A DNA stretch of 44,764 nucleotides from a virus, in IMG/VR virus record IMGVR_UViG_3300030012_003071, positions 1-44,764 of that record; one strand, given 5' to 3'. Positions 17,952 to 44,764 of the stretch are shown here, piece after piece. The stretch's first letter is position 1; each line of letters begins with the position of its first letter. Position numbers and translations under genes: made by a program. The notes beneath the pieces were generated by a model, which was not told the origin of the DNA, ran no database searches, and saw only the letters and a program-made list of their open reading frames with translations.

Positions 17952-17955
17952 GTCA

Positions 17956-19814: not shown

Positions 19815-19822
19815 TATTTATA
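19815..19822 (-). promoter_or_regulatory. T4-type late promoter before the 359-aa fibre gene
   Basis: Exact TATAAATA on the minus strand, 25 bases before the ATG, in the 34-base gap after the 1203-aa fibre gene. It would drive the 359-aa gene, gp13, gp14 and downstream small genes. Confidence 0.85.
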
Positions 19823-19824
19823 CA

Positions 19825-23436: not shown

Positions 23437-23446
23437 ATTAGCCGCC

Positions 23447-23800: not shown

Positions 23801-23850
23801 GAATTACTCCAATGAATTCTTTGTCGGTGACTACCACCCTGCCTATGAGT

Positions 23851-23858
23851 TATTTATA
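23851..23858 (-). promoter_or_regulatory. T4-type late promoter restarting virion-gene transcription
   Basis: Exact TATAAATA on the minus strand, overlapping the stop codon of the last radical SAM gene and 50 bases before the 117-aa gene's ATG. It marks the boundary between the biosynthetic cluster and the virion genes. Confidence 0.85.
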
Positions 23859-24960
23859 ACAATTTGCGTTTTGGGATCTTAGAATCTGCAGATGAAACAC
23901 ACGTTTGTGTGACACATGGCATTGGTTTATCAAATAATTTAAAGCCTGTAGTAATATTTCCTAAAGGCTCGTCAGAACAGGAATAGCTCCGTTTAATATT
24001 ACCATCAGGCTCACGTATAATAATACTACGATAGCCTGAATGGCAATGCCAACCATAAAACTTATTAAAATTAAACGTGTTAAAGCGTTCAGCTTGGTCC
24101 ATGTAGTACTTATTGCCTTTATCATCTTCTAGCTCTACTTGCATGTGTTGCGGTATGCCAGTCTTCTCATAACGGAGGTCAAGCTCAACTTTTGGACGAG
24201 GCCTTTTGATTCTCTTTTTGACATCGGTAAATCCACGTTGAGGCATGCCGTTACGTAAGCGTTCAAGCATACTATCAGTATAACCATCAACAATAAAACT
24301 AGCAGTAGGATCAGACTGAGGTTTAAGAGTGACATTGATTCCCCTTTCATGGAAATATATTGCGTCTTCCCAGCATTGTTCAAACTTATCCGGCAGCATA
24401 ACTTGATTGATTGTAACTTGAATGTCTTGGCTTTGGCAGTATTCTAACTTGTCGGCAAACTCCGCAACTTTCTCTTGTGTATCAACATGTTCCCTATGGC
24501 ACGATGCAGTGATACTGGCTCTATTGAACTGTGAACAAATCTTAGCGTATTCTTCAAACCAGTTCATCTTACGTGAAATGTTTGAAGTCATGTGTACTGA
24601 ATGATAGTTACAGTTCGGAACATCATCAGCCAGATATTGCATAATTTCTAAGTACTGTGGATGGAATGTAGGTTCACCACCACTAAAACTGAAATGAAAA
24701 GAATTATATCCATTATTGCGAGATTGACGTTTAATCTCATCAATAGTCATTAAAATTAAATCGATAGGTCTATGATCTTTCTTACGAGAAGAAGCATATG
24801 GCCAGCAGTATGAACATGAATAATTGCAGAATCGACCAAGCAACCAACTCACCGTAAACAGGTCGCGATGAATCATTGTGCGTTGACCCACACTTACAAT
24901 ATCATTGAATGGTATTTTATTAAAGTCGTACTGACTCCATTTTAGATCAGTCGTAGACAT
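23854..24960 (-). CDS. radical SAM protein with a C-terminal twitch/SPASM-like tail
   Basis: The radical SAM cluster motif is CNYSCSYC (three cysteines in a CxxxCxxC pattern) near residue 45 of the chosen start. The SAM-binding motif FSFSGGEPTFHP lies downstream. The last 70 residues hold CHSG, PDGNIKRSYSC, LGNI and C-x4-C, a short SPASM-like pattern for an auxiliary Fe-S cluster. Such enzymes cleave SAM to a 5'-deoxyadenosyl radical, often to modify peptides or carbohydrates. Two ATGs are possible. The one at 24958-24960 overlaps the preceding gene by only 14 bases; the longer start at 24990 lacks a ribosome binding site. It is the last gene of the cluster. Substrate unknown. Confidence 0.85.
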   Translation of the reverse strand: MSTTDLKWSQYDFNKIPFNDIVSVGQRTMIHRDLFTVSWLLGRFCNYSCSYCWPYASSRKKDHRPIDLILMTIDEIKRQSRNNGYNSFHFSFSGGEPTFHPQYLEIMQYLADDVPNCNYHSVHMTSNISRKMNWFEEYAKICSQFNRASITASCHREHVDTQEKVAEFADKLEYCQSQDIQVTINQVMLPDKFEQCWEDAIYFHERGINVTLKPQSDPTASFIVDGYTDSMLERLRNGMPQRGFTDVKKRIKRPRPKVELDLRYEKTGIPQHMQVELEDDKGNKYYMDQAERFNTFNFNKFYGWHCHSGYRSIIIREPDGNIKRSYSCSDEPLGNITTGFKLFDKPMPCVTQTCVSSADSKIPKRKLL

Positions 24961-25792
24961 ACTGTGGGTCTTCTTCAGCTTTTTCACCATATAATTCTAA
25001 ATATTTATTCACAAAGCTTTGAGCAATTAGTTGCATTCCCAGATCGTTAGGATGCCTTTCTTTCCAACCAAGCCAGTATCTTCTGTAGACGTTATACCAA
25101 TCAGTTTTTAATTTGAAAAAGTCAGGGTCACCTACTACATTCTCTAGTTGTTGAATCTTTTCGTAGTAAACACTTTTCTTACATGCTTCTAAAACAGCGT
25201 CTCTAATTTTTGGTTGTAGATCAGCTTGCTTGCCAGCTGGAGCGTCTGGTAAGGTGATCCATTCTATACCTACAAGCGTGTTTAATGCTCGGGCGTGAAT
25301 GATAGGTATGTCTTTAGCTTTACAGTATTGATCAAGCAACCAGATGCTTCTTAGCGAAATATTACCAACCTGACACCACCACTGTTCTTCGGTTAGTAAA
25401 GGTCCAGAATTATCGTTCATATGCAATTTTGCAAGTTCTGTGATAGCATGTTGAATTACACGCTTATGTTGACCGAATGGAGGAGGATACAGTGGCATAC
25501 CAACGCAGTGTGTTACTTGTGCAGAAGACATTTCATATGGAGTTATTCTGCATGCCTGGCTCCAACCAACCATTACTAAAAGATCTCTATCAGAGTTTTC
25601 TTCAATAGCATCTACAGTTTTATTATGAATGTATTCGTTTCCCGCTCCACCAAGACCAATATTCAAAACGTCGCAGTCAAGAAAAGAAGAAACGTAATCA
25701 GACCAGACTTTAGTCATACCTGCATCTTCATAACATCTTTCGTTTTTATTAGTCCAACTATCTCCAGCTGCTATTAATAATTTTTTAGTCAT
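24947..25792 (-). CDS. SGNH-hydrolase-like protein 1
   Basis: The 281-residue protein begins LLIAAGDSWTNK, with GDS at 10-12 as SGNH block I (Ser12 nucleophile). It continues VLNIGLGGAGNEYI near 42-55 as block II and ends with ERHPNDLGMQ, where His247 fits block V. SGNH enzymes are esterases or deacylases acting on O-acyl groups, often of sugars or peptidoglycan, but this family also includes non-catalytic members. The block III GxND is not obvious (VMVGWSQ fills that place). It overlaps the sibling SGNH gene by 8 bases and the following radical SAM gene. Confidence 0.7.
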   Translation of the reverse strand: MTKKLLIAAGDSWTNKNERCYEDAGMTKVWSDYVSSFLDCDVLNIGLGGAGNEYIHNKTVDAIEENSDRDLLVMVGWSQACRITPYEMSSAQVTHCVGMPLYPPPFGQHKRVIQHAITELAKLHMNDNSGPLLTEEQWWCQVGNISLRSIWLLDQYCKAKDIPIIHARALNTLVGIEWITLPDAPAGKQADLQPKIRDAVLEACKKSVYYEKIQQLENVVGDPDFFKLKTDWYNVYRRYWLGWKERHPNDLGMQLIAQSFVNKYLELYGEKAEEDPQYVYD

Positions 25793-26570
25793 AAATAAAT
25801 TCCGTTTCTACATCATCATATACAACGTCAGACGATATTTCTTTAACTCCAGACTCTTTCATTACCAAAAAAGATTCCAGTATATACTGGTGGCCCTTCT
25901 CATTTGGATGACTATCTTCATCAGATAAATGACATGTTTTGTCTTTCATCCACTTCATATTAGACCTAAAAGATTGCGTGGTAAAAAAATATGGATTGTA
26001 ATATCTGTTATGTGGAGTTTCAGCAATCAATTTACTATACCGATATTGTTCATATTCTTCACCTTCGTCTGGTCCCATCCACACAAGATTAGTTATTAAA
26101 GAACTAGACTGCGCTTGATAAAATTCAATATTGTTATTTTTTAAAAATTCGTTTAGTTTCCACATACATCTTAAATTATAATTTACAGCAACCTTGTCAA
26201 AATCACTACCCCAGAATCCATAAAGATCTAAAAAATTTTCAACTATCTCATGATCATTGTTTAATTGCAAATGTTTACCAGCTACATGAGTAGAATAATC
26301 AAAAAAGTTTATACGGTTTGGACTAGTCCATAGAATCATTACAATAAGTTTCTTATCTAAATTATCTATTACTGCGTCCATAACAGAATTAGTTATGTTG
26401 TCATTGCTGTATCCTGACTTACATAAGTTTAGAGTTTCTATTCCTAATTCTTTTCCTGCCAGTTCAGGCCAAGGTGTAACGTTATGTTTGAGATATCCAC
26501 TATAAGTAGAATCACCAAAGCTACATCCTCCGGCGATCAAAAGACTTTCACGTTGTATTTCTTTTCCCAA
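25785..26570 (-). CDS. SGNH-hydrolase-like protein 2
   Basis: A 261-residue relative of the next gene with the same frame: GGCSFGDS near residue 14 (block I), CKSGYSNDNITNSV (block II), VMILWTSPNRI, and DSHPNEKGHQY near the C-terminus (Asp/His of block V). Both end in a short acidic Tyr-Asp tail (EFIYD and QYVYD), suggesting duplication. TTG starts are the only options. The one used (26568-26570) keeps the first beta strand and overlaps the carbamoyltransferase by 34 bases. A TTG at 26538-26540 (TTTTGA overlap) would remove most of it. It probably edits an O-linked group; substrate unknown. Confidence 0.65.
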   Translation of the reverse strand: MGKEIQRESLLIAGGCSFGDSTYSGYLKHNVTPWPELAGKELGIETLNLCKSGYSNDNITNSVMDAVIDNLDKKLIVMILWTSPNRINFFDYSTHVAGKHLQLNNDHEIVENFLDLYGFWGSDFDKVAVNYNLRCMWKLNEFLKNNNIEFYQAQSSSLITNLVWMGPDEGEEYEQYRYSKLIAETPHNRYYNPYFFTTQSFRSNMKWMKDKTCHLSDEDSHPNEKGHQYILESFLVMKESGVKEISSDVVYDDVETEFIYD

Positions 26571-27877
26571 TCTTCAGCGTCTTTCTTATTGTCCACCATC
26601 GGTTGTCCTTTGATATTCAAACTTGTATTCAATAACATAGGACAGCCAGTAAGGTTATAAAATTCTTCTAAGACTAATCTTAGTTTTGATTCACAATCTG
26701 GTTTTACTACCTGTACTCTTGCTGTACCATCTACGTGTGTTACAGACTTGTAGTCATGTTCAGCTTTTGCTACAAACTGCATGTATTCATTCATCGGTCC
26801 GCTAAAAAATTTGGTGGAATATTCTTCGAGGATGGCTGGTGCAAAGGGCCTAAACTTTTGTCTTCTTTTAATTTCGTTGACTGTATCTTTAATGTCCAGT
26901 CGTGGATCCGCCAAAAGACTACGATTGCCCAAAGCACGAGGGCCGTATTCAGCCCGACCGTTGGCCAAGCCAGCCACCCCGTAAGTGCTAATGTAGCTTG
27001 CAACTTCTCTCGGGTTGACATCCTGTTTAATTTCTGTTCCAAGATAAGGTCCTTTCCAATTAAGTTTTTTTCCATAGTGTCGAGCCGCGGCACCAAGCGC
27101 TGATCCAGCATCGCCAGGATTCGGCATAATCCAAATATTTTTACCTTTGATCTTTGAGTTAGCTACACAATTAAGAGCGCAGCCTCCCATTAAGATAAGA
27201 TTCTCATGCTTACACCATATGCCAACTAATTGTAAAAGCCATTTTTCATACGATGCTTGAATACTAGCAGCGATATCTTCTGGTTTTCCTTGAGGTAGTT
27301 TAATTCCTTTATGGCAGTTTTCATGAATCAAATGATCAAAATCGTAGATTGGTTCGCCGTAAGCCGCCAATCCCATTACTATGTATTCTTCTTCCATAGA
27401 CTTATAACCGAGGCTAGCTGTCACAGCCGAGTAAGCTAATCCAGCGCTATCAGGGTAACACATACGATATACCTCGGTCATTGCACCATTACGAACTTCA
27501 AAAACAGCCGCTGACTCTTTTTCGCCGATCGCATCGATACAGAGTATGTCACAATCATCAAACTTGCTCGTAGCCCAGCCAGCCCATGCATGAGTTTCAT
27601 AGTGGTTGTACTCGTAATCAACCCTAATATTTTCTATTGATGGCTCTTGTCCAGCCGCTTTACGTCTTTCCTCTCTTCTCGATTTTACTTCATGACCAAC
27701 AAACACCGCATCCCTACACCATCCAGGAATGTGTGTAATCCATTTTTGATTCTTTACTTTAGTTGAACGTTCAGCGTGATGCGCCTTTATAATCTCACCG
27801 TTGCGGTGCCGACCACCTGCCTCAATCAAACACCATGCAGCGTCGTGGCTACCTTCTGCTATTCCTAGTATCTTCAT
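26537..27877 (-). CDS. NodU/CmcH-family carbamoyltransferase
   Basis: A 446-residue member of the carbamoyltransferase family (usual length 500-600). It has GSHDAAWCLIE near the start, NHYETHAW (H-x3-H, the metal/carbamoyl-phosphate site), GGCALNCVANSK, NPGDAGSALGAA and the hallmark GRAEYGPRALGNRSLLADPR. It ends with MLLNTSLNIKGQPMV. These enzymes make carbamoyl-adenylate from carbamoyl phosphate and ATP and transfer the carbamoyl group to a hydroxyl of a sugar or natural product. The ATG overlaps the upstream TGA (ATGA). The two SGNH genes come directly after, suggesting that carbamoyl and acyl groups are added to, or removed from, one product. Confidence 0.92.
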   Translation of the reverse strand: MKILGIAEGSHDAAWCLIEAGGRHRNGEIIKAHHAERSTKVKNQKWITHIPGWCRDAVFVGHEVKSRREERRKAAGQEPSIENIRVDYEYNHYETHAWAGWATSKFDDCDILCIDAIGEKESAAVFEVRNGAMTEVYRMCYPDSAGLAYSAVTASLGYKSMEEEYIVMGLAAYGEPIYDFDHLIHENCHKGIKLPQGKPEDIAASIQASYEKWLLQLVGIWCKHENLILMGGCALNCVANSKIKGKNIWIMPNPGDAGSALGAAARHYGKKLNWKGPYLGTEIKQDVNPREVASYISTYGVAGLANGRAEYGPRALGNRSLLADPRLDIKDTVNEIKRRQKFRPFAPAILEEYSTKFFSGPMNEYMQFVAKAEHDYKSVTHVDGTARVQVVKPDCESKLRLVLEEFYNLTGCPMLLNTSLNIKGQPMVDNKKDAEDWEKKYNVKVF

Positions 27878-28938
27878 GTCCACTGCGCCACGAACGGGTC
27901 AAACCCTTTATTACATTTCAATCCACACGTTTTCATTCTGCCTTGACCAACCCCATGAATGTCCCAGCTATTTTTAATTGATGAAAAGAACTCGCCCTCA
28001 AGGATTGTTTGTATAGGAGTATAGTGAACGTTGATCTTTTCAAAACCGCCAGTCGATTGGATGACCTTGTATTCTTGAGAGTCTTCCATCGGCCTCCACC
28101 ACTTATATACTTGCCCCGCCAACCAACAACACGGAAACACGAGTCCTTCGGCAGACACGTAAATTTCTTTCTTATCAACGCACTTTGGTTGTATCTCAGC
28201 AACGTCAATAAACTTATCCATCGAGCCGTATCGTTCGATGATATTATTATAGTCTTCATCAATTGCTTTATTACGCCACTTGGGATCTTTTGGTGGCGCA
28301 AGTCTTTTCGCATCCTTGCCTCTAAATACTGCTTGGTGGTCATCTTTTTTCTGTAGGTTTGCTGTGTTTATATATCTACCAGATTTCTTTACGATAAAGT
28401 CACGCACACCAATAATTTGTGAAAACATTCTAGCCTGTTCTATCTGATGTTCGTTATAATTAAATACTAGAAATGTCCACTTCGCATGACCACCCGCATC
28501 GCAAAACGCTGCCATGTTGTCTTCAACATTTGACCACTTTACACCTTGACGATAAAAATGATTTGTATCTTGTAAGCCGTCAACAGAAAAGTTGACAAAG
28601 TTTACTACTCCAGCGAGTTTTTCCCACCAATCGGGTTTGCGAGCACCGCCATTAGTAGTAACAAACATATGAATGCTAGGGTTGCTATGACGCACATATT
28701 CTGCTATCTCCAACATGTCTGGTGCAAAGATGGGATCACCATGATTGCCACAGAAGTAAAACGTTTCGAGTTGAGCCAAGAACTCTGGTGAAAAGGCTTT
28801 TTGAAAACCTTCCAAAGTCATTGACTCGTCTTTTAGATACTGATTGACTTCACCACCATTCTTGTTTCTATCACACATAGGACAAGAAGCCTGACACATC
28901 TGTGTAGGTTCGAAGTGTATCATCTTCACGTTATACAT
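27874..28938 (-). CDS. radical SAM/SPASM-type protein with GDP variant motif, copy A
   Basis: The 354-residue protein has EPTQMCQASCPMCDR with cluster cysteines C15, C19, C22. Instead of GGEP it has GNHGDPIFAPD. The rest includes TNGGARKPDWW and FSVDGLQDTN. The C-terminal third has PKC...KKEIYVSAEGLVFPCCW and CGLKC, fitting a SPASM-like auxiliary cluster. It is a clear duplicate of the next gene (28931); the pair share the FAPD, TNGGARKP and YRQGV motifs. The two overlap by 8 bases. The likely role is radical modification of a peptide or small molecule; substrate unknown. Confidence 0.85.
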   Translation of the reverse strand: MYNVKMIHFEPTQMCQASCPMCDRNKNGGEVNQYLKDESMTLEGFQKAFSPEFLAQLETFYFCGNHGDPIFAPDMLEIAEYVRHSNPSIHMFVTTNGGARKPDWWEKLAGVVNFVNFSVDGLQDTNHFYRQGVKWSNVEDNMAAFCDAGGHAKWTFLVFNYNEHQIEQARMFSQIIGVRDFIVKKSGRYINTANLQKKDDHQAVFRGKDAKRLAPPKDPKWRNKAIDEDYNNIIERYGSMDKFIDVAEIQPKCVDKKEIYVSAEGLVFPCCWLAGQVYKWWRPMEDSQEYKVIQSTGGFEKINVHYTPIQTILEGEFFSSIKNSWDIHGVGQGRMKTCGLKCNKGFDPFVAQWT

Positions 28939-29935
28939 ACTGCAGTTTTACCGTATCCTGTGTTGTGTTACATTTAGCTGCGCAAATATATGGTGTGTCA
29001 TCTCCGTTCCATCTTTCATGTAGATTACTAAACCACGACATTGCGGCGTACAGTCCGTATTTCTTTGCATCATTTTCTGGTGATACAACCATTGAAGCCA
29101 TATCTAATCGTTCTTCTTCAGAAACATTTTGAGAACTTACAAGCGACGTGTGGGCCCAGCAACATGGAAATACGTGACCAGTGGCCGATACAAAAATTTC
29201 TCTTTCAACAACACATTTTGGTAATATTCTAAAAGCACTTCTTTCATTAGACGTGTAAGGATTTTTCATTACCTCACTTTGGTATTTATCTTGTTTCGGT
29301 GGCTTTATTATTGTTTTCTTTTTCCCTCGTAAATATGCTTGCCAAGCTGGGCGTTCCTTATCGTATCTACTTGTTGTCTTTGGCCTGAAGTCTGTAAAGC
29401 CCATATCTTTTGACAGTCTTTCAGCGTCCTTGACTTGGTGTTCATTATGTTCGAACACAAGGTAGTCCCATTTTGCTTTTCCACCCGCATTAATAAACTC
29501 CTTAACGTTATTCATTATATTATACCACACTACTCCCTGTCTGTAAACCCCATTTGTATCTTCGAGTCCATCAATTGAGAAAGTAACATGGTTAACTACC
29601 TTTGCTATTTCAGCCCACCATTCTGGTTTACGCGCCCCACCATTAGTATTCATTGACATGTATATCTTTGGATTGTGTTTTCTAAAATACTTGAATATTT
29701 CAATACAATCTGGCGCAAATATTGGGTCACCAAGATTACCACACATGTACATATCTTTTAGTTGTTCTACAAAGTCTGGTGGAAAGATAAGTTTTACATC
29801 ATCAATAGAAAGCGATGCACCACTTATAATAGGATTTAACTCACCGTCAAGCGTAACCCTATCGCACATCGGGCACATTGCCTGACATAATTGAGTTGGT
29901 TCTAAATGTAACTTCGTTACGTGGTAACCATTCAT
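28931..29935 (-). CDS. radical SAM/SPASM-type protein with GDP variant motif, copy B
   Basis: A paralogue of copy A: EPTQLCQAMCPMCDR (C17, C21, C24 from the chosen start), GNLGDPIFAPD, TNGGARKPEWW, FSIDGLEDTN, and PKC...REIFVSATGHVFPCCW with CAAKC near the end. It starts at ATG 29933-29935, which overlaps the preceding TGA as ATGA; a TTG three codons earlier is also open. Keeping two related enzymes side by side suggests two similar substrates, two sites on one substrate, or a heterodimer. No accessory domain distinguishes it from copy A. Confidence 0.85.
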   Translation of the reverse strand: MNGYHVTKLHLEPTQLCQAMCPMCDRVTLDGELNPIISGASLSIDDVKLIFPPDFVEQLKDMYMCGNLGDPIFAPDCIEIFKYFRKHNPKIYMSMNTNGGARKPEWWAEIAKVVNHVTFSIDGLEDTNGVYRQGVVWYNIMNNVKEFINAGGKAKWDYLVFEHNEHQVKDAERLSKDMGFTDFRPKTTSRYDKERPAWQAYLRGKKKTIIKPPKQDKYQSEVMKNPYTSNERSAFRILPKCVVEREIFVSATGHVFPCCWAHTSLVSSQNVSEEERLDMASMVVSPENDAKKYGLYAAMSWFSNLHERWNGDDTPYICAAKCNTTQDTVKLQYV

Positions 29936-30669
29936 GATCCACAATCACCAGGCCAATGGTATTGTCTGAAAGCCCAGCTTCTTTCCATACACCACCAGCA
30001 TTCACCACACTCTTTGGTAAAGCCATCAGTCATATAATCCCATCCTTCACATGATCTTGTAAGTGGAAGTAACGTATCAACTAGATTATATTTTTTGTAT
30101 AACTCTGCCACATGACCTTTGTGGTGCCGAACAAACGGACAGCAATGTAGTATGTTTCTTTTTGAATCATCATTAACTTCAGGTTTAGATCCTCTGCAAT
30201 GCCAATCACGATGTTTTTCTCTACATTCCCAAACCTTTTCACCAAATACTTCGGACGATCCCCAGAATGCGTCACCAATTTCTTCAGGTGGATTCGCAGT
30301 CACACCGTTAAATACTTGAGTATATTCGCCAATCGTGGCCACGGTTTCATCTATAAGTCTTTCTTGAAAGTCTACATAGTTATTTGCATTTTTACTATCT
30401 GGTATGCCGCCAGGATCATGGCACATCCAAGCTTCTTGTGGTTCAAAATTTACATTCGGCCAGTGTTCTTGAATAAAATCATAAACTTGCTGCGCGTGAT
30501 AACTCTGCCAGTTACGCACTCCATGAATCACAGTGATTGGCCATACCGTAAGTGGCTTATTTGCCTTTGTCCATTCATCACATATCATCCAAAGAAGTAA
30601 AGCGCTATCTGCTCCACCTGATAATCTTATAATTACATTTTCTGTTTGTACTGGAATCTTAATAGACAT
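29932..30669 (-). CDS. QueC-like PP-loop ATPase
   Basis: The 245-residue protein opens with IIRLSGGADSALLLWM, a classical PP-loop (SGGxDS). The C-terminus has SCEGWDYMTDG, then CGECWWCMERSWAF, matching the four-cysteine zinc site of QueC/ExsB-type enzymes. It also has CHDPGGIPDS and HCCPFVRHHKGH. QueC makes preQ0, a precursor of queuosine and 7-deazaguanine DNA bases, by adenylating a carboxylate. Here the gene lies inside a radical SAM cluster and no QueE/QueD/FolE partner is visible, so it may instead activate a different acid. It starts at ATG 30667-30669 with an 11-base overlap. Confidence 0.75.
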   Translation of the reverse strand: MSIKIPVQTENVIIRLSGGADSALLLWMICDEWTKANKPLTVWPITVIHGVRNWQSYHAQQVYDFIQEHWPNVNFEPQEAWMCHDPGGIPDSKNANNYVDFQERLIDETVATIGEYTQVFNGVTANPPEEIGDAFWGSSEVFGEKVWECREKHRDWHCRGSKPEVNDDSKRNILHCCPFVRHHKGHVAELYKKYNLVDTLLPLTRSCEGWDYMTDGFTKECGECWWCMERSWAFRQYHWPGDCGS

Positions 30670-33026: not shown

Positions 33027-33580
33027 ATCGCAAACATACTCCCGTTGTGGTCAATAAAATTGTCTGGTTCAATTATTGCCAAAGCTTCAGCTACCTCTTT
33101 ACCGTACTTTTCATGATTCAAATATCTACCAATTATAATACCATCATTTTTTATTTCTTGTATCGCTTTCATGTAATGAAAGAAAACGCTTAACATACTT
33201 TTTGTTGCGGCCGCTGATAGTATTATAACATCAAACGACTGCTTTGTAAACAGAATATTTTCATAAGATTCTACATGATATTCAGAGAACGGGCAGTTCT
33301 CTTTAAAATATTTTGAATGGACCATAGGATAATCAAGAGTATGATCGAACGGGAGCTTGGGATCAACCATAGGAAACGGATAAAGCTCCCAAGTATCAAC
33401 AGCCGTGTAATCCCAATCAGGCCTGTGTTTAAACAAGCCGTGAAATGTTTTTCCTACATACGCACCAACTTCAAGGATTGATCCCTCATTGTCCCACATA
33501 AAGCTTCTAATAAAATCAATCTCATCTTGCTGAATGTATCCCTTAGACAACGAATCCAATAATAAACTCTTTCCAAGCAT
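33020..33580 (-). CDS. class I SAM-dependent methyltransferase
   Basis: A Rossmann methyltransferase: GSILEVGAYVGKTF is motif I (SAM-binding Gly-rich loop). YTAVDTW is the acidic motif II. FDVIILSAAATKS is motif IV, and the post-motif NDGIIIGRYLN follows. The longer open frame (to 33649) overlaps the oxygenase gene by 107 bases, so the Met codon at 33578-33580 (MLGKSLLLDSL) is preferred, leaving a 38-base overlap. It probably methylates the cluster's product or a phage/host surface group; the substrate cannot be told from sequence. Confidence 0.75.
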   Translation of the reverse strand: MLGKSLLLDSLSKGYIQQDEIDFIRSFMWDNEGSILEVGAYVGKTFHGLFKHRPDWDYTAVDTWELYPFPMVDPKLPFDHTLDYPMVHSKYFKENCPFSEYHVESYENILFTKQSFDVIILSAAATKSMLSVFFHYMKAIQEIKNDGIIIGRYLNHEKYGKEVAEALAIIEPDNFIDHNGSMFAIW

Positions 33581-37202: not shown

Positions 37203-38521
37203 AATAAACCTTCGTATTGTGGCACTACACTTAGAATATTCTGATTGCGAATGAGATCTAATTTTGTAGTGTGTAATTTAAACTCTTCAAGGTGGTCTGT
37301 TGCAAAGTCTTCTGAGTTCATAAAATCCATAATGCCATCGAGAATAGCTACAAACTTTTGCTTTACGTGATCAGAATGATCTGATGCTAGTACCCAATCG
37401 ATATATTCTTGATACGTATCACATACTTCGTCTTTCAACATTTGTGGTAATACCTTGACATTATAATACTTTGGCGAATGACACATGTGCTGCGTGATTA
37501 CCGGCCTTGGTCCGGTAACAGGATTGAACCGTGTAAGACCAGATTCTTCTAGTTTCCATTTCATAAACTCGGGTAAATGAAAAACGTTAAATGGTGTAAC
37601 GGTAAAAGCAAACCAGCCTTTCAAGTTGATGTTTGGATTATCATTTAGCTTTTTCATGTTTTTATAAACTGAAGGCCATTTTGCTGGTGTTCTTTGATAT
37701 TCAAACACGTCACCATAACCATCGATTGAAACGCCAATGCGAACCTGTTTAAAGTTTTCCCATATCTTCATTATGCGATCGGTAACGTTAGTCAGGTTAC
37801 TATTGTATTCGATTTGAATATCTTTGGCTCTACCAGCAGCAATCAATCTTTCAAGTGATTCAAAGTGTTCTTCAATGATAAGTGGTTCACCGCCGACAAT
37901 GTAAAGTTTCTTAGCCTTTGTTGTATGTTTCTCAAAATTGTTCCAATAGAAGTTTGAGTTCTTAAACCAATTATATTGATCGGTAGACCACTTACCTTTT
38001 TCATTCTTAGTTAGTTGGATGAGATCGTGCGTATCTTTATACTTGGTGGTATTGTAAAGGGCGACATGATCTGAATACCACATGTGACTGTCGGTGGGCC
38101 CGCACATACGGCATTTAAGGTTGCAAAAATTGCCGTAACGAATATCGAAAAACTCGAGATCAAAATCACTAGGATCAATGGATCCGTCTTCGTTAGTTTT
38201 TTCCATAGCCTCCTCAAGCGTGAGGTCCCAGTCTTCTGATTCATATTCTCTCCTTGATCTAATACCATTCACTTCTTCTTGGCGGCAACGTTCACATTCA
38301 GGATTCCATTCGCCTTTCATCATTGAAACACGAACATCTTTTATTATCTCAGCGTTACGGGCATCATTTAAGTCATCACGACCAGCGTTGTATGGTGTAC
38401 CATCTGCTTTACGCATGATACCTTTCTTCGGGCTGTAACTATTCGTGTTACAACAAATACGAAGGTCGCCGTTATTTCTTAAATTTATTGAGTTCCAAGC
38501 TAATGGACAAAACGTGCTCAT
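37199..38521 (-). CDS. N-terminal-twitch radical SAM protein
   Basis: The 440-residue protein has twitch cysteines C5 (FCPLAWNS), C23/C24 (RICCNTNS), then CERCRQEEVNG (C76, C79). An acidic linker leads to CNLKCRMCG (C133, C137, C140). LYIVGGEPLIIEEH and SIDGYGDVFEYQRTPAKW follow. The C-terminus ends LDLIRNQNILSVVPQYEGLF. AAGGAAG 7 bases upstream is a strong ribosome binding site. An insertion with DLNDARNAEIIKDVRVSMM resembles the substrate-side loop of the 473-aa paralogue. Probably works with an auxiliary 4Fe-4S cluster. Confidence 0.9.
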   Translation of the reverse strand: MSTFCPLAWNSINLRNNGDLRICCNTNSYSPKKGIMRKADGTPYNAGRDDLNDARNAEIIKDVRVSMMKGEWNPECERCRQEEVNGIRSRREYESEDWDLTLEEAMEKTNEDGSIDPSDFDLEFFDIRYGNFCNLKCRMCGPTDSHMWYSDHVALYNTTKYKDTHDLIQLTKNEKGKWSTDQYNWFKNSNFYWNNFEKHTTKAKKLYIVGGEPLIIEEHFESLERLIAAGRAKDIQIEYNSNLTNVTDRIMKIWENFKQVRIGVSIDGYGDVFEYQRTPAKWPSVYKNMKKLNDNPNINLKGWFAFTVTPFNVFHLPEFMKWKLEESGLTRFNPVTGPRPVITQHMCHSPKYYNVKVLPQMLKDEVCDTYQEYIDWVLASDHSDHVKQKFVAILDGIMDFMNSEDFATDHLEEFKLHTTKLDLIRNQNILSVVPQYEGLF

Positions 38522-39588
38522 GCAAATACTTCCTTAAAAATCGGAATGTAATCATATATACTTTTTCCATAAGCATTATCGTATAATTCTGTTCTTACTT
38601 TCAATATGTTCATTCTTTTTTTATCGTGTTTACCGTTTTCTAACCTATGAATAATTGCTAATAACTTACTCGTGTATAAATCATCGTATCCCTTAAAATT
38701 TTGATAAAACTCGTCAAGCGCGTAATCTCTCCATTTATCAGGTAAAATACTAATATCCATTTCTTCTGGTGTATTTGCGTATATGTAGTCGCATCCACCT
38801 CCAACATAATTACTTATTTTCCAAAAATCAAATACGTTATAGGCAGAAACACATACGTGTATTCTATCATCTACGTGTGGTAATTGATCTCTAAATTCTG
38901 CTAGATTTTTTTGAATTGTTTTCCATTTTGCAGGATGCCGTATATACTCATATGTTTTTTCTGTACCGTCAATACTCCAATGTATTTTTACTTTATAAAA
39001 TTTTTTAATTAGCTTCATAAAACGTTTGTTTAAGTTAGTAAGATTAGATGTAATAAAAATTTTCACATGAGGATCTAATCTTTCTAAAATATCGTAAGCT
39101 TCCGATTGTAGCATTGGCTCTCCACCAAGAAGTTTTACTTCAATAGCTTTACTAAAATTAAGATCTACTATTTCAGGCTTTACCGCTGGTGTATCAAACT
39201 GAAGCAATTCAGGATGCCTTTTAAGTTGTTTGTCTATTTGTGAGCTTGAGTACGGCCCACACATTCTACATTGTAGATTACAAAGATTATTCAGCCTTAA
39301 ATCAAAAGTAAGTGGTAATCCAGTTTCGTTACCTTTTACAATATCAGGTTTGAAGTCTGTAAACTTATTCATAAGTTTTCTATGACTTAATGATCCAATA
39401 GCATCGTTATGATAGCACTCTTCGCAACCTTTAACTTTTTCGTTATTTAATTTTTTACGACGAACCTCTTGCATCGCTTTATCGTTCCATTTGTATCTCA
39501 AGCCTCCTTGTTGAGCGCAACACAATCCACTCGTGCCAGCGTTATCTACATGCTGGTGTATAAATGGTGCGGTACAAAACGTGCTCAT
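38518..39588 (-). CDS. N-terminal-twitch radical SAM protein
   Basis: The ATG at 39586-39588 overlaps the upstream TAA (TAATG); the longer frame to 39615 adds nine residues without support. Twitch cysteines are C5 (FCTAPFIHQ), C23/C24 and GCEECYHNDAIG. The core is CNLQCRMCGPYSSSQ (C103, C107, C110) with VKLLGGEPMLQ. SIDGTEKTYEYIRHPAKW and IPIFKEVFA at the end link it to the paralogue family. It is the shortest twitch enzyme here (356 residues). The CGP(Y)SSSQ segment next to the cluster is shared with the 394-aa neighbour, so these two are closest relatives. Confidence 0.9.
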   Translation of the reverse strand: MSTFCTAPFIHQHVDNAGTSGLCCAQQGGLRYKWNDKAMQEVRRKKLNNEKVKGCEECYHNDAIGSLSHRKLMNKFTDFKPDIVKGNETGLPLTFDLRLNNLCNLQCRMCGPYSSSQIDKQLKRHPELLQFDTPAVKPEIVDLNFSKAIEVKLLGGEPMLQSEAYDILERLDPHVKIFITSNLTNLNKRFMKLIKKFYKVKIHWSIDGTEKTYEYIRHPAKWKTIQKNLAEFRDQLPHVDDRIHVCVSAYNVFDFWKISNYVGGGCDYIYANTPEEMDISILPDKWRDYALDEFYQNFKGYDDLYTSKLLAIIHRLENGKHDKKRMNILKVRTELYDNAYGKSIYDYIPIFKEVFA

Positions 39589-40772
39589 TATATTTCTTCT
39601 AACATTTGATGACAAATCGGGTGATAGTCTTTTACGTGTTTACCTCGGCTAAAGTCCTGTAACCCAGTTAAGTATTTAAGTTTTTTCATGTGTTCTAGAT
39701 TTGTTTCCCTTGATAACATATCTTCAAAAACATGTTTGTTCCTATCGTAGCTATTATTTTGTTTCGCTATATCAATTGCTTTTTCTTTCCATTCTTGTTT
39801 CATATAACCAGGACAGTGATGAAAAGGTTCAACTACTAGTTCAGTATGATTTTTAGATAACCAAGGAGTTTCATCTACGAGTTGGCCTAGTTCCCAAAAG
39901 TCAAATATGTTGTAATTCATTATCACCTGAGCTAATTCTAAATTCATCTCGCCATTCCAAGACATCTCAGATATCTTTTGAATATTTTGCCACATCTTTT
40001 TTCCATTAGCGTTTCCTCTAATATATGCTAAACGGTCAGGATGCGAATCAAATGAAACATTCAAAAGAACTTTATCAAATTTTGTAAGTAGCTTATAAAA
40101 CTCATCTTGAGCGTTCGTACCGTTTGTAACAACTTTAATCGATACCGAGGTGTTTCCAACTTCAATAAGCTTTCTTAATAATTGTTTTACCTCAGGTTGT
40201 ACTGTAGGTTCACCTCCAAGTATCCTTACGTATTTAATAAACTCGGCTTCTTCTAAAAGAGGATCAATGTTTTTTCTTTTTCCTAAGCTAAGTTGAAACT
40301 CTTTGTCGTACTTTTCCCAATGAGGATAAAGTTCTGGAAGTTTTTCTGCTTCTTTTACAAGTTGCGAACTCGATTCTGGCGTACACATTCTGCAAGCTAG
40401 ATTACAAACATTGTTGAATCTTAAATCGTACGAGAATGGTACACCAAATATATTTCCTTGGCGTATGTCTAACGATGGACTACCACTTTCTTCCCAAAAT
40501 CCGTTTATCTGGTGTCTAAATGAAAAATTACCTAAAGCTTCTTGATCCTTACAATACCTGCATTCATCTAACCAGCCTTCACCATTTAACATGAAGTCTC
40601 TAACTTTTTGATAATCTTCACCTTCCCAATCTTCTAAATCAAGTAACTTTTCTTGATGCTCGTTACTTACACCAGGCTTTGGCCAGCGATCAGACCAACA
40701 ACAAAGAAACTTTTTTCCTTGTGTTGATATAAACTGGTGCATAAAGGGTGCAGCACAAAAGTTATTTGCCAT
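39588..40772 (-). CDS. N-terminal-twitch radical SAM protein
   Basis: A 394-residue enzyme with twitch cysteines C6 (FCAAPFMHQF), C24/C25 (KFLCCWSDR) and ECRYCKDQEALGN (C71, C74). The core is CNLACRMCTPESSSQ (C123, C127, C130) with VRILGGEPTVQP. A Lys/Glu-rich region (EKLPELYPHWEKYDKEF) lies between. The final part has WELGQLVDETPW and CHQMLEEI. It overlaps the 473-aa gene by 11 bases. It has GGAG about 4 bases before the ATG. Like its neighbours, it retains all four twitch cysteine positions, arguing for function and not decay. Confidence 0.9.
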   Translation of the reverse strand: MANNFCAAPFMHQFISTQGKKFLCCWSDRWPKPGVSNEHQEKLLDLEDWEGEDYQKVRDFMLNGEGWLDECRYCKDQEALGNFSFRHQINGFWEESGSPSLDIRQGNIFGVPFSYDLRFNNVCNLACRMCTPESSSQLVKEAEKLPELYPHWEKYDKEFQLSLGKRKNIDPLLEEAEFIKYVRILGGEPTVQPEVKQLLRKLIEVGNTSVSIKVVTNGTNAQDEFYKLLTKFDKVLLNVSFDSHPDRLAYIRGNANGKKMWQNIQKISEMSWNGEMNLELAQVIMNYNIFDFWELGQLVDETPWLSKNHTELVVEPFHHCPGYMKQEWKEKAIDIAKQNNSYDRNKHVFEDMLSRETNLEHMKKLKYLTGLQDFSRGKHVKDYHPICHQMLEEI

Positions 40773-42183
40773 ACCACTCCAACCAATCTAAATCTGGAAA
40801 TACTTCATTGAAATCTAAGAATCTTTGCTTGGCTACCTTGTAGCACCATTCAGCGGTCTCAGGTAATCTTTCAGACCAGTCATCTGCTTCCATAAATGTC
40901 AATAGTCCTTCTAAACGTTTAATACCATACTCGGACTCACGCCATGTTTTATAATCAGGCGCGCCTGTACACCTATGCCAGTTCTCTTCTAACCAAGGAT
41001 ATAATTCTTCTTCATACTTTTGTCTAACCTCGCTTTTAAACCAGTCTGGTAAAACTTTCACGTTCAACTGTGGTGGCCAATAAGCAAGATGGCAATTGAA
41101 TATTCCAGCGCCATTAGGCCATTTGTTGAGTATCTTAAAATTAGAATCAATCTTCCACTTGATAAACTCAGGAACATAGAATATATTTAACGCCATAATT
41201 GTTGTGGCCGTTGTAAGAGTTAAGTTACCATGTGGATAGTTATCCATCTTATGAATTGAATTAGTAATTGTTTGCCAGTCAGATGGATAACGAATGAAGT
41301 GATTACGTATTGATATGTCGTCTACACTAAAATGAAATATCACATTACGAAATTCTTTCCATAGATCAAATAAATTGTCTTGCCATTCTATACCGTTTGA
41401 ATTGTACCGTAACTCGATGTCTTTGGCTAATCCATCTTCGATACATTTTTCAAGTAACATGTAGTGTTCATCCATAATCAATGGCTCACCACCAGCAAAA
41501 TATAACTGCCGAAGATGCGGAAGTGTTTCGTACAGTTCATCCCAAAACTTTGGATTCTTTTTATGCCAGTTGTAAGAACCGCCCGACCAGGCTAACTTGC
41601 CAGATTCTTTTTCCCATGCCATAGATTTTCTAAGATTATCATTTTCAAGTGTAGGGTAAATCTTTTTGTGTTCTTTTACCCAGTTACTAGAATCATGAGG
41701 GCTACACATAACACATGCGAGCTGACACTTACTGCCAAGGCGTAAGTCGATATAGCGTATTCGTGGAGCCACTGATCCATCTTCACCCGTGCCTTCGATA
41801 ATCGGTTCAATACCGCCTTGGTCTTTGATCCACTTACGAGTTTCCCAAATCCTTTTTGAGATATGGCCTGCCTCTTCTTCTTTATAGCACTTAGTACAGC
41901 TACTAGGTTTTTGTCCATTAAGCATCATCCTTCTTACGCCACGCATGTATTCGTTGTTCCACGATTCCATCAAACTGGTTGTGGCAAGGTTAGATGGTTT
42001 ACCGTCGTCATTACGAAGTACACCAGATTCTGAAACTGTCTTATTTGTCGAGTTTGCATTCACTGCAACCCCTGATGCGTTTGCGGTACAACACACTCTC
42101 ATGTGACCATTAGGTCTCGTGGAGAGATGCATCCAAGGCAAAGCACAAAAAGTTTCTGAAGGGAACTGATCGTCGATTTTCAT
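40762..42183 (-). CDS. N-terminal-twitch radical SAM protein, first gene of the cluster
   Basis: The largest of the set (473 residues). FCALPWMHLSTRPNGHMRVCC (C13, C31/C32, read in two pieces) opens the twitch module, which continues LMESWNNEYMRGVRRMMLNG and CTKCYKEEEAGHISKR (C96, C99). The core is CQLACVMCSPHDSSNW (C153, C157, C160) with LYFAGGEPLIMDEH. The second half has FIRYPSDWQTI and NIFYVPEFIKW. It starts 56 bases from the oppositely oriented glycosyltransferase ATG. No strong ribosome binding site or promoter is seen ahead of it; GAAAAG is the only purine run. Confidence 0.9.
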   Translation of the reverse strand: MKIDDQFPSETFCALPWMHLSTRPNGHMRVCCTANASGVAVNANSTNKTVSESGVLRNDDGKPSNLATTSLMESWNNEYMRGVRRMMLNGQKPSSCTKCYKEEEAGHISKRIWETRKWIKDQGGIEPIIEGTGEDGSVAPRIRYIDLRLGSKCQLACVMCSPHDSSNWVKEHKKIYPTLENDNLRKSMAWEKESGKLAWSGGSYNWHKKNPKFWDELYETLPHLRQLYFAGGEPLIMDEHYMLLEKCIEDGLAKDIELRYNSNGIEWQDNLFDLWKEFRNVIFHFSVDDISIRNHFIRYPSDWQTITNSIHKMDNYPHGNLTLTTATTIMALNIFYVPEFIKWKIDSNFKILNKWPNGAGIFNCHLAYWPPQLNVKVLPDWFKSEVRQKYEEELYPWLEENWHRCTGAPDYKTWRESEYGIKRLEGLLTFMEADDWSERLPETAEWCYKVAKQRFLDFNEVFPDLDWLEWYGK

Positions 42184-42184
42184 G

Positions 42185-42213
42185 TTTACTTTTCAATCAA
42201 ACTGTGATATAAT
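42185..42213 (+). promoter_or_regulatory. sigma70-type promoter with extended -10 for the plus-strand operon
   Basis: TTTACT (42185-42190), 17 bases, TATAAT (42208-42213) preceded by TGA (extended -10). It closely matches the gp55 promoter at 983-1011 in both hexamers, the spacing and the GTGATATAAT end. GGAG then ATG follows at 42239. The divergent cluster has no comparable site. Confidence 0.85.
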
Positions 42214-42238
42214 AAATACTGTTACGGAGCTATTTATT

Positions 42239-42937
42239 ATGGATTTTTATGCGTTAAAATGGGGTGACAAATACGGCCCTGAGTATGTCAATAGGCTGTA
42301 TGGTAGTCTAGTTAAGCACTACAAAAAACCTTTTACGTTTACGTGTTATACTGATAATATATCACATCTCGATGAGAATGTAAAGGTAAAAAACATAAAA
42401 GATCTAAAAAAGTTTGATACAGATCGAGTGTTTACGTATGAGAAGCTAGTGCTCATGGAAAAACACGAGAAAGGTATTTGGCTTGATCTAGATATACTTA
42501 TACACGACGACATTACAGATATTTGTGAAGATGATTCAGACTTCAAGATGATATGGAATCATTGGAACAATTACTGGGTTAAATCTGGTAGATGGTATGG
42601 TAAAGGCTCGTCTTGTCACGTCAACAGTTCGTTCGTTAAGTTTCACAATCCAGAATGGTTAATAAGATTCACTAACGATAACTGGGAAAAGATTGAATGG
42701 ACATATAAATCGCTTGATAAATACCTGTTCTATCAACATCATAGAAACGATCGTTTAAAATACTGGAACAAAGGTATTGTTTCAAACTACAATCGTGAAG
42801 GATTTAAACTGCGGGGAAACATTTCGATATTTAATACGTCGCACATATACAACAATAAAGGAATCGTTGAAGAATCTTATGAACTACATGAAGCTGATGA
42901 AGAGACAATAAAGTTATGGAAAAGTTACGACAGATAA
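42239..42937 (+). CDS. glycosyltransferase-like protein (GT-A type)
   Basis: A 232-residue protein beginning MDFYALKWGDKYGPEYVNRL. It contains FTFTCYTDN, then WLDLDILIHDDI, an acidic D-x-D motif (LDLDIL) fitting nucleotide-sugar/Mn binding in GT-A enzymes. Later HVNSSFVKFHNPEW and NTSHIYNNKG resemble the acceptor side of GT8-like enzymes. It probably transfers a sugar to a surface or cluster product. The start at 42239 has GGAG upstream and follows the sigma70 promoter; an open ATG at 42182 would lie within the -35 region and is rejected. It overlaps the next gene by 22 bases. Confidence 0.75.
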   Translation: MDFYALKWGDKYGPEYVNRLYGSLVKHYKKPFTFTCYTDNISHLDENVKVKNIKDLKKFDTDRVFTYEKLVLMEKHEKGIWLDLDILIHDDITDICEDDSDFKMIWNHWNNYWVKSGRWYGKGSSCHVNSSFVKFHNPEWLIRFTNDNWEKIEWTYKSLDKYLFYQHHRNDRLKYWNKGIVSNYNREGFKLRGNISIFNTSHIYNNKGIVEESYELHEADEETIKLWKSYDR

Positions 42938-43326
42938 AACATATTTGTATGAATTACGATAAAGTTATATTTTTAGCCTGTAATGATTTGCAGCAAGAAC
43001 TTCATATCTTAAACGCATGCGAGGTAGAAGCTACTGCTGTTGATTACGATCCTAAGTTTAAGGACAAGCCAAACTACATTAATAAAGACTTTGTGTTTGA
43101 TAACGTAGAACTCGAGGCTGATCTTATAGTTCACATGAATGTTGAGAAAACTTATCCTGTAAAACTTACCGGTGACGTAATATTACGTGGAGATAACGAA
43201 GGTCATAATGGTGATTGCACAATCGTAAGTTCTTGCGAACAACTAATTAAGATGTACAACATTGAAGAAGTATACAGCACTCGTGAAACAGATACACACT
43301 ACTTTGTTTATGGACGCGCCGCATGA
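42916..43326 (+). CDS. small Rossmann-like, methyltransferase-related protein (136 aa)
   Basis: KVIFLACND, TAVDYDPKF, DFVFDNVELEADLIVHMNVEKTYPV, and VILRGDNEGH fit the order of class I methyltransferase motifs I, II, III/IV and V, but with motif I lacking the glycines. At 136 residues it is short for a full enzyme, so it could be a degenerate or pseudo-methyltransferase partner. The ATG at 42916 has AGAGA upstream and overlaps the glycosyltransferase end; the internal ATG at 42949 lacks a ribosome binding site. The layout echoes the 206-aa methyltransferase-like protein two genes on. Function unknown. Confidence 0.55.
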   Translation: MEKLRQIKHICMNYDKVIFLACNDLQQELHILNACEVEATAVDYDPKFKDKPNYINKDFVFDNVELEADLIVHMNVEKTYPVKLTGDVILRGDNEGHNGDCTIVSSCEQLIKMYNIEEVYSTRETDTHYFVYGRAA

Positions 43327-43487
43327 AATTACTTGACTACGTTGTAATCTACTTTTTTACATACATGATTTCTTCGCATCTCATGTTGATAATGTTGCAG
43401 AACTATTTTATTGGTGCTGCCGGTGTATGGTTATTCTGGAGTCTGTTTAATATGTACTGTCAATGGCGAGCAACGAATGCAAATTGA
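43323..43487 (+). CDS. small two-helix membrane protein (54 aa)
   Basis: The ATG overlaps the TGA of the previous gene (ATGA), and its own end overlaps the next ATG by 11 bases, so the frame fills the gap exactly. The sequence MKLLDYVVIYFFTYMIS begins a first hydrophobic helix, followed by LMLIMLQN and FIGAAGVWLFWSLFNM as a second, and a Cys/Gln/Arg end. Two membrane segments seem likely. No family is known to me; it may anchor a surface-modifying complex. Confidence 0.6.
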   Translation: MKLLDYVVIYFFTYMISSHLMLIMLQNYFIGAAGVWLFWSLFNMYCQWRATNAN

Positions 43488-44094
43488 ATATGCTGAAATG
43501 ATGAAGTGGATAAGACATAACCACCCCGATCATATTGATCGATGGATGGATTCACTACACCCAAATCAGATTAAATGTAAGGAATGGCTAGTTGAGAGTC
43601 TCAATAAAGTTCAAATACCTCAAGACAACAATGACAAGTTTCGTATAGAAATTATTGGTGGTTGGTATGGTTATCCTTTGATAGATCTGCTGTATAAAAA
43701 CTTTAGAACCTACATTAGAGAAATTGACGTTTTTGAAATAGATGAGTTTGCTTGTAAAGTTATCAATAAGTATAAACAGTTATTTGAACATTGGAACGTA
43801 AGAATATTCCACCAAGATTATTTTACATATCAAGAAAAAAGAAGAACACACCTGGTTATCAATACGTCCTGCGAGCATATGTGGAATATGTCAACTAATA
43901 AAGAATACTATGAATCACCTGAACGAACCTTGCTAGCTTTACAATCAAATAATTTTTATAGATTACCTGAACATGTTAACTGCGTAAGCACTGGACAAGA
44001 ACTTGCTGCTCAGGCTGAAGTAAAAGAACTCTACGGTGATAAAATAAAGTTTGATGAATATACTCGATTTATGATTCTGGGCAAATGGAAATAA
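43477..44094 (+). CDS. methyltransferase-like protein (205 aa)
   Basis: The ATG at 43477 (MQIEYAEMMKWI), after GGCGAG, overlaps the membrane gene by 11 bases; the earlier ATG at 43411 would lie inside that gene. The Rossmann pattern is IEIIGGWYGYPLI (motif I), VFEIDEFACKV (motif II), RIFHQDYFTYQ (III) and THLVINTSCEHMWNM (IV). The YGYP loop and the NTSCEHM motif set it apart from standard methyltransferases. It could methylate a small acid, as nicotianamine-synthase-like relatives do. Its stop overlaps the radical SAM gene by 10 bases. No substrate can be inferred. Confidence 0.65.
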   Translation: MQIEYAEMMKWIRHNHPDHIDRWMDSLHPNQIKCKEWLVESLNKVQIPQDNNDKFRIEIIGGWYGYPLIDLLYKNFRTYIREIDVFEIDEFACKVINKYKQLFEHWNVRIFHQDYFTYQEKRRTHLVINTSCEHMWNMSTNKEYYESPERTLLALQSNNFYRLPEHVNCVSTGQELAAQAEVKELYGDKIKFDEYTRFMILGKWK

Positions 44095-44764
44095 TAAACT
44101 CAAATCCAGATTGTTGTATCGTTTCTTTGTTTGTACACAACGTTTGTAATTTTAATTGTAGTTACTGTAGTGACGAGCATCGTGATGGATCTTATCGTTG
44201 GCCTACTAACTGGGATGGTTATCTAGATCTGATTGACGAGATAAAAGAAAGAAAGAAATACGTATACGTTCAGATTCTTGGTGGTGAACCAACCTTATGG
44301 CCAAAGTTTCACGACTTTGTAAAATATATTAGTGACGATAGAACTTATATTGAATACGCAACAAACGGTAGTAGAACTAAAAGGTATTGGGAAAGTTTGC
44401 CTAAACATACAGCCACTGCTTTATTCAGTTGGCACTATCAAGAGATTGATGACGAACACTACCTCGACGTACTGGAGATCATGCAGGACAAAGCTTCTTG
44501 TGTAGCCACGTTTCTTATGACACCCGATAATTTTGAAAGAGGGCAAAGGGTTTATAACGAAATAGTAAAAAGAGATTTAAAGGTCGAAGCCATTCCAAAA
44601 TTTACTCGGGTTGTAATCGATGGCCCGGACTGGTTTGAATATACAGAAGAACAAAAATCGTGGATTCAAAGTAACTATTATAATAAGCTAGAATCTGGCC
44701 CGAACTTTACTTTACCGCTCGAGTGTAATCAGGGTAAGCTATCCGAGTTAATAGCTTCAGAAAA
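44085..44764 (+). CDS. radical SAM protein, partial (plus-strand operon)
   Basis: Open from ATG 44085-44087 to the window end, 226 codons. It has CNFNCSYCSDEHRDG (C21, C25, C28), then VQILGGEPTLWPKF, and FSWHYQEIDDEH near residue 122. No N-terminal twitch module is present. This resembles the stand-alone radical SAM type of the minus-strand gene at 23854. C-terminal auxiliary-cluster cysteines cannot be judged because the gene is cut. It is the twelfth radical SAM gene in 21 kb and the only one outside the minus-strand cluster. Confidence 0.85.
   Translation, partial: MEIINSNPDCCIVSLFVHNVCNFNCSYCSDEHRDGSYRWPTNWDGYLDLIDEIKERKKYVYVQILGGEPTLWPKFHDFVKYISDDRTYIEYATNGSRTKRYWESLPKHTATALFSWHYQEIDDEHYLDVLEIMQDKASCVATFLMTPDNFERGQRVYNEIVKRDLKVEAIPKFTRVVIDGPDWFEYTEEQKSWIQSNYYNKLESGPNFTLPLECNQGKLSELIASE

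Follow-up and report, generated by a model that had tools for sequence, protein, structure and literature searches.

A radical SAM gene island at the putative host recognition locus of a T4-like phage, and its counterpart in Bdellovibrionota

Arrays of radical S-adenosylmethionine (SAM) genes in T4-like phages have been described before. The Campylobacter phages CP220 and CPt10 carry 11–12 radical SAM genes as an interchangeable module that adjoins a pair of nucleotide-diphospho-sugar transferases (PMC2853527), and the 183-kb T4-like Tara genome TARA_ERS488813_N000010 carries 12, which were interpreted in terms of Fe–S metabolism (PMC5332604). For pelagimyophages, the available excerpts of one study describe a host recognition cluster that is variable and always lies between VrlC and gp14, and report radical SAM cassettes that differ between two of the genomes (PMC7029224). 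Here, we describe a radical SAM gene island in the virus record IMGVR_UViG_3300030012_003071, classed as a linear fragment; its whole length of 44,764 bases is referred to below as the window. The island contains twelve radical SAM genes (R1 to R12) mixed with putative tailoring enzymes, and its core recurs both in many uncultured viruses and on Bdellovibrionota chromosomes. Its genes probably make or decorate a sugar or a protein that functions on the surface of the phage or of the cell.

The radical SAM genes and their neighbours

A preliminary description of this DNA, made from its letters alone, had listed twelve CxxxCxxC proteins, ten with GGEP and two with GDP, and both counts were borne out. 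The motif is present in 12/12 candidate open reading frames (ORFs), all of which match PF04055 (Pfam Radical_SAM) with E-values from 7e-15 to 6e-7; GGEP is found in ten, and the remaining adjacent pair, R2 (27874–28938, minus strand) and R3 (28931–29944, minus), carries CGNxGDP. Ten of the twelve exceed the curated PF04055 cut-off of 29.5 bits, and the two below it, R11 and R6, are clear members of the NCBIfam family NF033640, a twitch domain-containing radical SAM family, with 400 and 294 bits. The profile search proposed as a check thus returned 12/12 for PF04055 and 7/12 for NF033640. Eleven of the genes lie in a single minus-strand run from 42183 to 23854, interleaved with seven other genes. 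The overlapping gene ends claimed for this run occur at almost all junctions, except for one 96-nt gap (34968–35065). The twelfth gene, R12 (44085–44764), sits in the divergent plus-strand operon as had been stated, and is truncated by the end of the record. Since R12 is full-length (295 aa) in related contigs, one of which (L094) has a second copy after it, twelve is a minimum and the true count is probably higher. Such an accumulation of radical SAM genes is far beyond chance.

Mutual comparison divides the proteins into three groups. The first consists of R4 (30659–31864; 230 bits), R5 (31854–33026; 203 bits), R6 (35065–36300), R8 (37199–38521), R9 (38518–39615; 251 bits), R10 (39588–40772; 230 bits) and R11 (40762–42183), all on the minus strand, in which an N-terminal SPASM/twitch domain precedes the radical SAM core. 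Membership in NF033640 was taken as a whole-protein score above 170 bits together with this domain order, and these seven proteins score 203–400 bits over nearly their full length, whereas R1, R2, R3, R7 and R12 score 30–48 bits. In the second group, R2 and its paralogue R3, the core comes first and is followed by Cys-rich, SPASM-like C-termini. The third comprises R1 (23854–24990, minus), R7 (36252–37202, minus) and R12, of which R1 additionally has conserved Cys residues in a C-terminal, twitch-like part. Identities among the twelve are mostly 21–33%, with the exception of R2/R3 (47%), and therefore indicate old duplications. Larger architectures were seen in other contigs. Two tandem CxxxCxxC motifs occur in single proteins of L107 (12161–14266) and L167 (2162–4369), and NF033640-like proteins of 670–691 aa with an extra N-terminal part of about 230 aa, which has no Pfam match in the four proteins scanned, occur in L118, L121, L124, L131, L352 and L109.

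Among the helper functions that the preliminary description had assigned, those of the carbamoyltransferase and the PP-loop protein held best. CarbT (26537–27883, minus) matches both Carbam_trans_N and Carbam_trans_C above cut-off (PF02543, 96 bits; PF16861, 156 bits), strongly supporting a predicted carbamoyltransferase of NodU/CmcH type, and scores 129 of the 1000 bits that the NodU equivalog requires. PPl (29932–30675, minus) has a QueC-like C-terminal Cys motif and matches PF06508 with 25.5 bits against a cut-off of 22, good support for a putative PP-loop ATPase. The other minus-strand labels are weak, with all matches below cut-off: a putative SAM methyltransferase (MT, 33020–33649; PF13847, E 0.034), the real start of which may lie downstream; two paralogous SGNH/GDSL-like proteins (SGNH1, 24947–25792, PF00657; SGNH2, 25785–26570, PF13472); and an aminotransferase-like protein with an SKAFG..G.RIG lysine motif (PLP, 34060–34968; TIGR01141, E 0.0025). 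OX (33543–34085, minus) is a possible 2-oxoglutarate (2OG)–Fe(II) oxygenase recognised by HxD and H..R motifs by eye only, with no family match. On the plus strand, the candidate GT-A-type glycosyltransferase GT (42239–42937) has a weak PHROG glycosyltransferase match (E 2.7e-4) and DxD, NSS and GT-A-like motifs, the first two being invariant across 25 relatives; it is followed directly by the small conserved protein MTa (42916–43326). The AlphaFold2 model of MTb (43411–44094, plus; pLDDT, the model's own confidence score, 89.6) shows a Rossmann-like fold that matches OxaG (Z 15.9) and NodS (Z 15.3), by which MTb is a predicted class-I SAM methyltransferase.

Core and accessory genes in viruses and Bdellovibrionota

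IMG/VR was scanned with CarbT, PLP, R11 and R8 as queries for a comparison of synteny. Several virus contigs retain the order R11-(R10)-R8-R7-R6-PLP-OX-R5-R4-PPl-R3-R2-CarbT-SGNH-R1-smallT-tailA-tailB-gp14, with GT-MTa-MTb diverging at the R11 end. Gains and losses among relatives concern mainly R7, R9, R10, R12, SGNH (the paralogue number of which varies), OX and PLP, so the island has a core of R1, R2, R4, R5, R8, R11 and the PP-loop gene and a variable accessory part of R7, R9, R10, SGNH, OX and PLP. In more distant contigs the core shrinks to MTb, R2, R11, R8, R1 and the PP-loop gene beside different extra radical SAM genes, and the set is reduced in very distant viruses to R1, R2, R11 and often R8, accompanied by MTb and glycosyltransferases. 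R1, the most conserved core enzyme, is 64–91% identical across viruses (R8, 62–96%), and its relatives are encoded by at least 558 confirmed uncultured viral stretches in IMG/VR. In R1-bearing contigs of at least 70 kb, NF033640-type genes are present in 30/30 and a clear R11 orthologue in 25/30, while 18 whole contigs carry from 7 to 23 PF04055 genes each. R11 is nearly absent from the collection of phages by sequence search, and isolates are therefore few.

Relative to two close contigs, the ratio of nonsynonymous to synonymous substitution rates (dN/dS) is 0.03–0.05 for R8, R11, R1 and R2, 0.16–0.34 for SGNH and 0.17–0.25 for the tail genes, values that are only rough because many pairs are saturated, or nearly so, in dS. 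Distances across loci correlate between R1 and R11 (Mantel r 0.53, p 0.001) and between R2 and R11 (r 0.63, p 0.001), and weakly between R1 and R2 (r 0.15, p 0.03), perhaps through a mix-up of paralogues. A part of the island may be a separate module: in 17 of 80 CarbT-centred loci, GT-MTb lies next to CarbT/SGNH with few radical SAM genes, which suggests that CarbT-SGNH-GT-MTb can stand on its own. The GT-MTb pair was seen by CarbT and SGNH in the CarbT-centred contigs L031, L052, L057, L060, L071, L078, L083 and L085. ThyX-like genes (flavin thymidylate synthase-like, by eye) were also noted in or beside islands (L147, 8605–9297; L153, 8643–9302; L361, 11167–11832).

Homologues of R2 were found on long chromosomal contigs of metagenome-assembled genomes of Bdellovibrionota, with R1, R11, often R8, MTb and a DxD family named SYxEP as neighbours. 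The bacterial R1 is 53–61% identical to that of the window, and the bacterial R11 also passes NF033640 (434 bits). Among 192 Bdellovibrionota genomes, R1 (E ≤ 1e-60) occurs in 12 and R11 in the same 12, with a chance probability of 3e-19; five of these had previously been reached via the R2 search, and without them the co-occurrence stands at 7 of 187 (7e-13). One of the twelve, G126, shows only weaker R11-type matches. R2 (E ≤ 1e-100) is found in 11 of the 192 genomes and SYxEP in 12, ten being shared in each case. Phage-tail-like genes adjoin R1 in genome G190, and some of the bacterial copies may thus be prophage. In a tree of R1, 92 virus or virus-like rows group in a single clade with full support and the Bdellovibrionota rows fall outside it, which fits a single old exchange between viruses and Bdellovibrionota in either direction.

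Gene order kept in independent contigs, the perfect bacterial co-occurrence of R1 and R11 and the low dN/dS of the core together support a coherent biosynthetic island that moves as a set. Scattered, independent acquisitions without a shared neighbourhood, named beforehand as the outcome that would speak against it, were not what was found. The biosynthetic pathway that the preliminary description saw in these genes is thus partly supported: the genes form a coherent island, in which all twelve enzymes may or may not act in one linear pathway.

Location, late promoters and predicted product

In relatives, the island is bordered on one side by a VrlC-like baseplate protein and on the other by smallT, tailA, tailB and gp14. 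The window itself holds the gp14 and fibre side, and the VrlC side is present in L095, L096, L097 and L128. The boundary gene smallT (23447–23800) encodes an L-shaped tail-fibre assembly-like protein (phrog_3304, E 3.5e-15), tailA (19825–23436) a large repetitive fibre-like protein and tailB (18711–19790) a fibre-like protein paralogous with part of tailA, all on the minus strand. Judged from these flanking genes, the island of this T4-like marine phage occupies the site that has been described in pelagimyophages as the host recognition cluster. Phage C48C1, the portal protein of which is 67% identical to that of the window phage, has the same flanking genes with only two genes between them, one GT-A glycosyltransferase-like and one 2OG oxygenase-like (by motif only), both without a Pfam match. 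Comparison with the window suggests that the site can hold either a minimal glycosyl/oxygenase pair or a large radical SAM set.

The motif AATAAATA occurs on both strands of the intergenic region between R11, the first gene of the minus operon, and GT: at 42211–42218 (plus), 20 nt before the likely ATG of GT (42239), and at 42231–42238 (minus), 48 nt before R11, both sites resembling T4-type late promoters. In relatives, R11 is preceded by either TATAAATA or AATAAATA, at a distance of 38–48 nt in five related contigs and of 14 nt in two more distant ones. TATAAATA itself has seven sites in the window, each of them on the minus strand, with six lying 6–61 nt before the starts of structural genes; the exact count of 7 against 5.1 expected is not above chance overall. 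One such site (23851–23858, minus) overlaps the stop of R1 and would serve the tail genes downstream as their late promoter. Sigma-70 promoters and terminators in the window were not above shuffles. A gene at 366–956 encodes a late sigma-factor-like protein, 61% identical to the annotated late sigma factor of C48C1, which agrees with the presence of late promoters in this record. Because of this gene and the conserved T4-type motif before R11, the island is probably transcribed late, together with the virion genes.

We favour, with a probability of about one half, the reading that the island encodes a late-expressed glycan-tailoring pathway acting on tail fibres or the host surface. The SPASM/twitch radical SAM enzymes (R1, R2, R8 and R11 as the core, the other paralogues being optional) would act with the PP-loop, PLP and oxygenase proteins to turn a sugar or sugar nucleotide into unusual derivatives. 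Methyl, carbamoyl and acyl groups would be put on or trimmed by MTb, CarbT and SGNH, and the resulting product would be linked by glycosyltransferases to the co-produced tail fibres or to the host envelope. We observe the genes, their conservation as a set, the place of the island, the late-promoter motif and the company of glycosyltransferases and sugar enzymes; from these we infer that the substrate is a sugar, in what sequence the enzymes act and which acceptor they serve. Glycosyltransferases lie near radical SAM genes in most settings examined, namely the window, distant viruses and Bdellovibrionota (the SYxEP family); in Vibrio phage K566, an isolate, a GT8 gene is flanked by NF033640 genes, and the SAR11 phage Mosig also has a GT8. 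Related islands contain genes for UDP-glucose/GDP-mannose dehydrogenase (UDP-sugar dehydrogenase) and NAD epimerase, and a single 785-aa protein of L169 (3363–5720) joins GFO_IDH_MocA sugar-oxidoreductase and radical SAM domains. The company of glycosyltransferases, the nucleotide-sugar enzymes, this fusion and CarbT suggest sugar-type chemistry. The search for precursors or glycan genes that had been recommended thus turned up glycosyltransferases and sugar enzymes in relatives, and no universal precursor.

Several points weigh against this reading. No nucleotide-sugar enzyme is present in the window itself. SPASM enzymes act on peptides more often. The R11 model is equally like BlsE (sugar nucleotide), CteB, anSME and SuiB (peptide) and viperin (nucleotide), all with Z-scores of 11–12, and was set aside as an indicator of substrate. 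Glycosyltransferases also occupy host recognition clusters that have no radical SAM genes, so the association could reflect a shared location. The Bdellovibrionota core has no tail-fibre genes nearby, a point against a role confined to tail fibres; the bacterial copies would fit an envelope glycan better. We hold as doubtful the narrower proposal of an ancient, undescribed pathway, common to large aquatic phages and Bdellovibrionota, in which R1, R2, R8 and R11 work together with MTb and a glycosyltransferase to build a radical-made modification that phages place on their own receptor-binding fibres. Such a modification of a virus particle by radical SAM enzymes would, to our knowledge, be the first.

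The main alternative, which we regard as rather unlikely, is that the SPASM enzymes modify virion proteins directly, most likely the adjoining fibres, by cross-links, epimers or C-methylated or oxidised residues, much as maturases of ribosomally synthesized and post-translationally modified peptides (RiPPs) work on peptides, with the remaining enzymes decorating further. SPASM/twitch domains characterise radical SAM enzymes that modify peptides and proteins, and late fibre genes adjoin the block, yet the Bdellovibrionota core has no fibre genes beside it, and no precursor peptide or conserved acceptor is common to all loci. The fibre protein tailA is rich in Asp-Ser dipeptides (47 against 12 expected), with 3.0–4.6-fold enrichment in island-bearing siblings and at most about 2-fold in the fibre proteins of C48C1, which has no such block; in other cluster-bearing lineages the enrichment is just 1.3–1.8-fold (tailA of L154–L161), and Asp-Ser richness is an ambiguous mark of modification. 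RiPP maturase families (PapB, StsB, W_rSAM and others) gave no more than about 43 bits where at least 300 are required, and no precursor peptide was seen in the packed operon of the window. A conserved protein of about 75 aa (LR.LQ.E.AR....ATNNNI..FN..AHHNS..WY...GDLPS..GPG), with no significant Pfam or PHROG family, lies near R2 or R1 in 36 loci (e.g., L126, 7457–7684; L127, 19343–19573; L145, 6020–6250; L167, 8847–9068; L169, 9769–9993). It precedes R2 in distant phages, but was rejected as a universal precursor and considered accessory, since neither the window nor Bdellovibrionota nor cluster-free sets contain it.

Three further explanations are less probable. Radical SAM, carbamoyltransferase, PP-loop, aminotransferase and methyltransferase genes together resemble an antibiotic gene set, and the fold matches of MTb include NodS and natural-product methyltransferases; a small diffusible product (RiPP-like or a saccharide antibiotic) released at lysis is nonetheless improbable, as the block's ORFs include no precursor peptide, non-ribosomal peptide synthetase, polyketide synthase or exporter, and it would leave the location in host recognition clusters of many phages unexplained. 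More improbable still are independent auxiliary metabolic genes that tune host Fe–S or cofactor metabolism and cluster only through an insertion hot spot. The 2017 interpretation by Nishimura of the Tara genome (PMC5332604) runs along this line, and the numbers of R7, R9, R10 and SGNH do vary among relatives, but the conserved order, the strictly co-occurring core, the single late operon and the low core dN/dS speak against it. Last in our estimate comes a modified base of phage DNA or tRNA, made by the PP-loop (QueC/TilS-like) and radical SAM (QueE-like) proteins. PF06508 on the PP-loop gene and weak QueE/NrdG2-like matches of R7 and R12 point this way, whereas all equivalog scores are a long way short of the curated thresholds (18 of 150 bits for QueC, about 32 of 260 bits for QueE), the window showed no further recognisable deazaguanine gene, the block forms a late operon adjoining tail genes, and CarbT, SGNH and GT would be left unaccounted for. 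An assignment as a defence system was dropped: PADLOC gave just partial viperin-like and weak QueC matches, and the best viperin scores were 44 bits (NCBIfam, NF038283) and 45 bits (PADLOC, pVip), over the N-terminal half only, where more than 180 are needed.

Comparison with described systems

The novelty of the array is smaller than the preliminary description implied, because T4-like phages with 11–12 radical SAM genes were reported in 2010 and 2017 (PMC2853527, PMC5332604). In the open-licence literature, we found no explanation of phage radical SAM arrays and no earlier description of a linked core of viruses and Bdellovibrionota, a near-empty site and a late promoter, although prior work may exist elsewhere. 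The viral stretches with an R1 relative, with up to 23 radical SAM genes per contig, form a large reservoir of uncharacterised radical chemistry. Should the product indeed be placed on fibres or on host lipopolysaccharide, it would bear on host choice or on the exclusion of rivals by abundant aquatic phages.

We note that each of the described systems shares some features with the island and differs in others. The family NF033640 includes seven of the window proteins and the Bdellovibrionota R11, but is a single-protein model with a name and no function, and excludes R1, R2/R3, R7 and R12. The pelagimyophage cluster has the same place between VrlC and gp14 and the same mix of fibre and glycosyltransferase genes, whereas the available excerpts of its description contain no analysis of the radical SAM genes, named core, late promoter or cellular counterparts (PMC7029224). 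The Tara genome is likened to the window by description, both having twelve radical SAM genes. The radical SAM proteins of CP220 include no NF033640-type protein (with N-terminal twitch) and no homologue of R1 or R11; three have a distant R2-like match only (48–72 bits), and the CP220/CPt10 module has an amidinotransferase where the window island has a carbamoyltransferase.

The cultured SAR11 phage Mosig EXVC030M has relatives of CarbT (32–33% identity), MTb (about 32%) and the glycosyltransferase (44–50%), as well as SGNH and R2-like genes, in an island placed between fibre genes and VrlC; it differs in having only three MoaA-like radical SAM genes and no NF033640, R1 or R11. Vibrio phage K566 (L204, OZ196521) carries at 11426–28793 five NF033640-like radical SAM genes and the GT8 gene, with a PagP lipid-A acylation gene nearby. 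Vibrio phages K566/K567 and Mosig, as cultured phages with related genes, thus offer culturable test systems.

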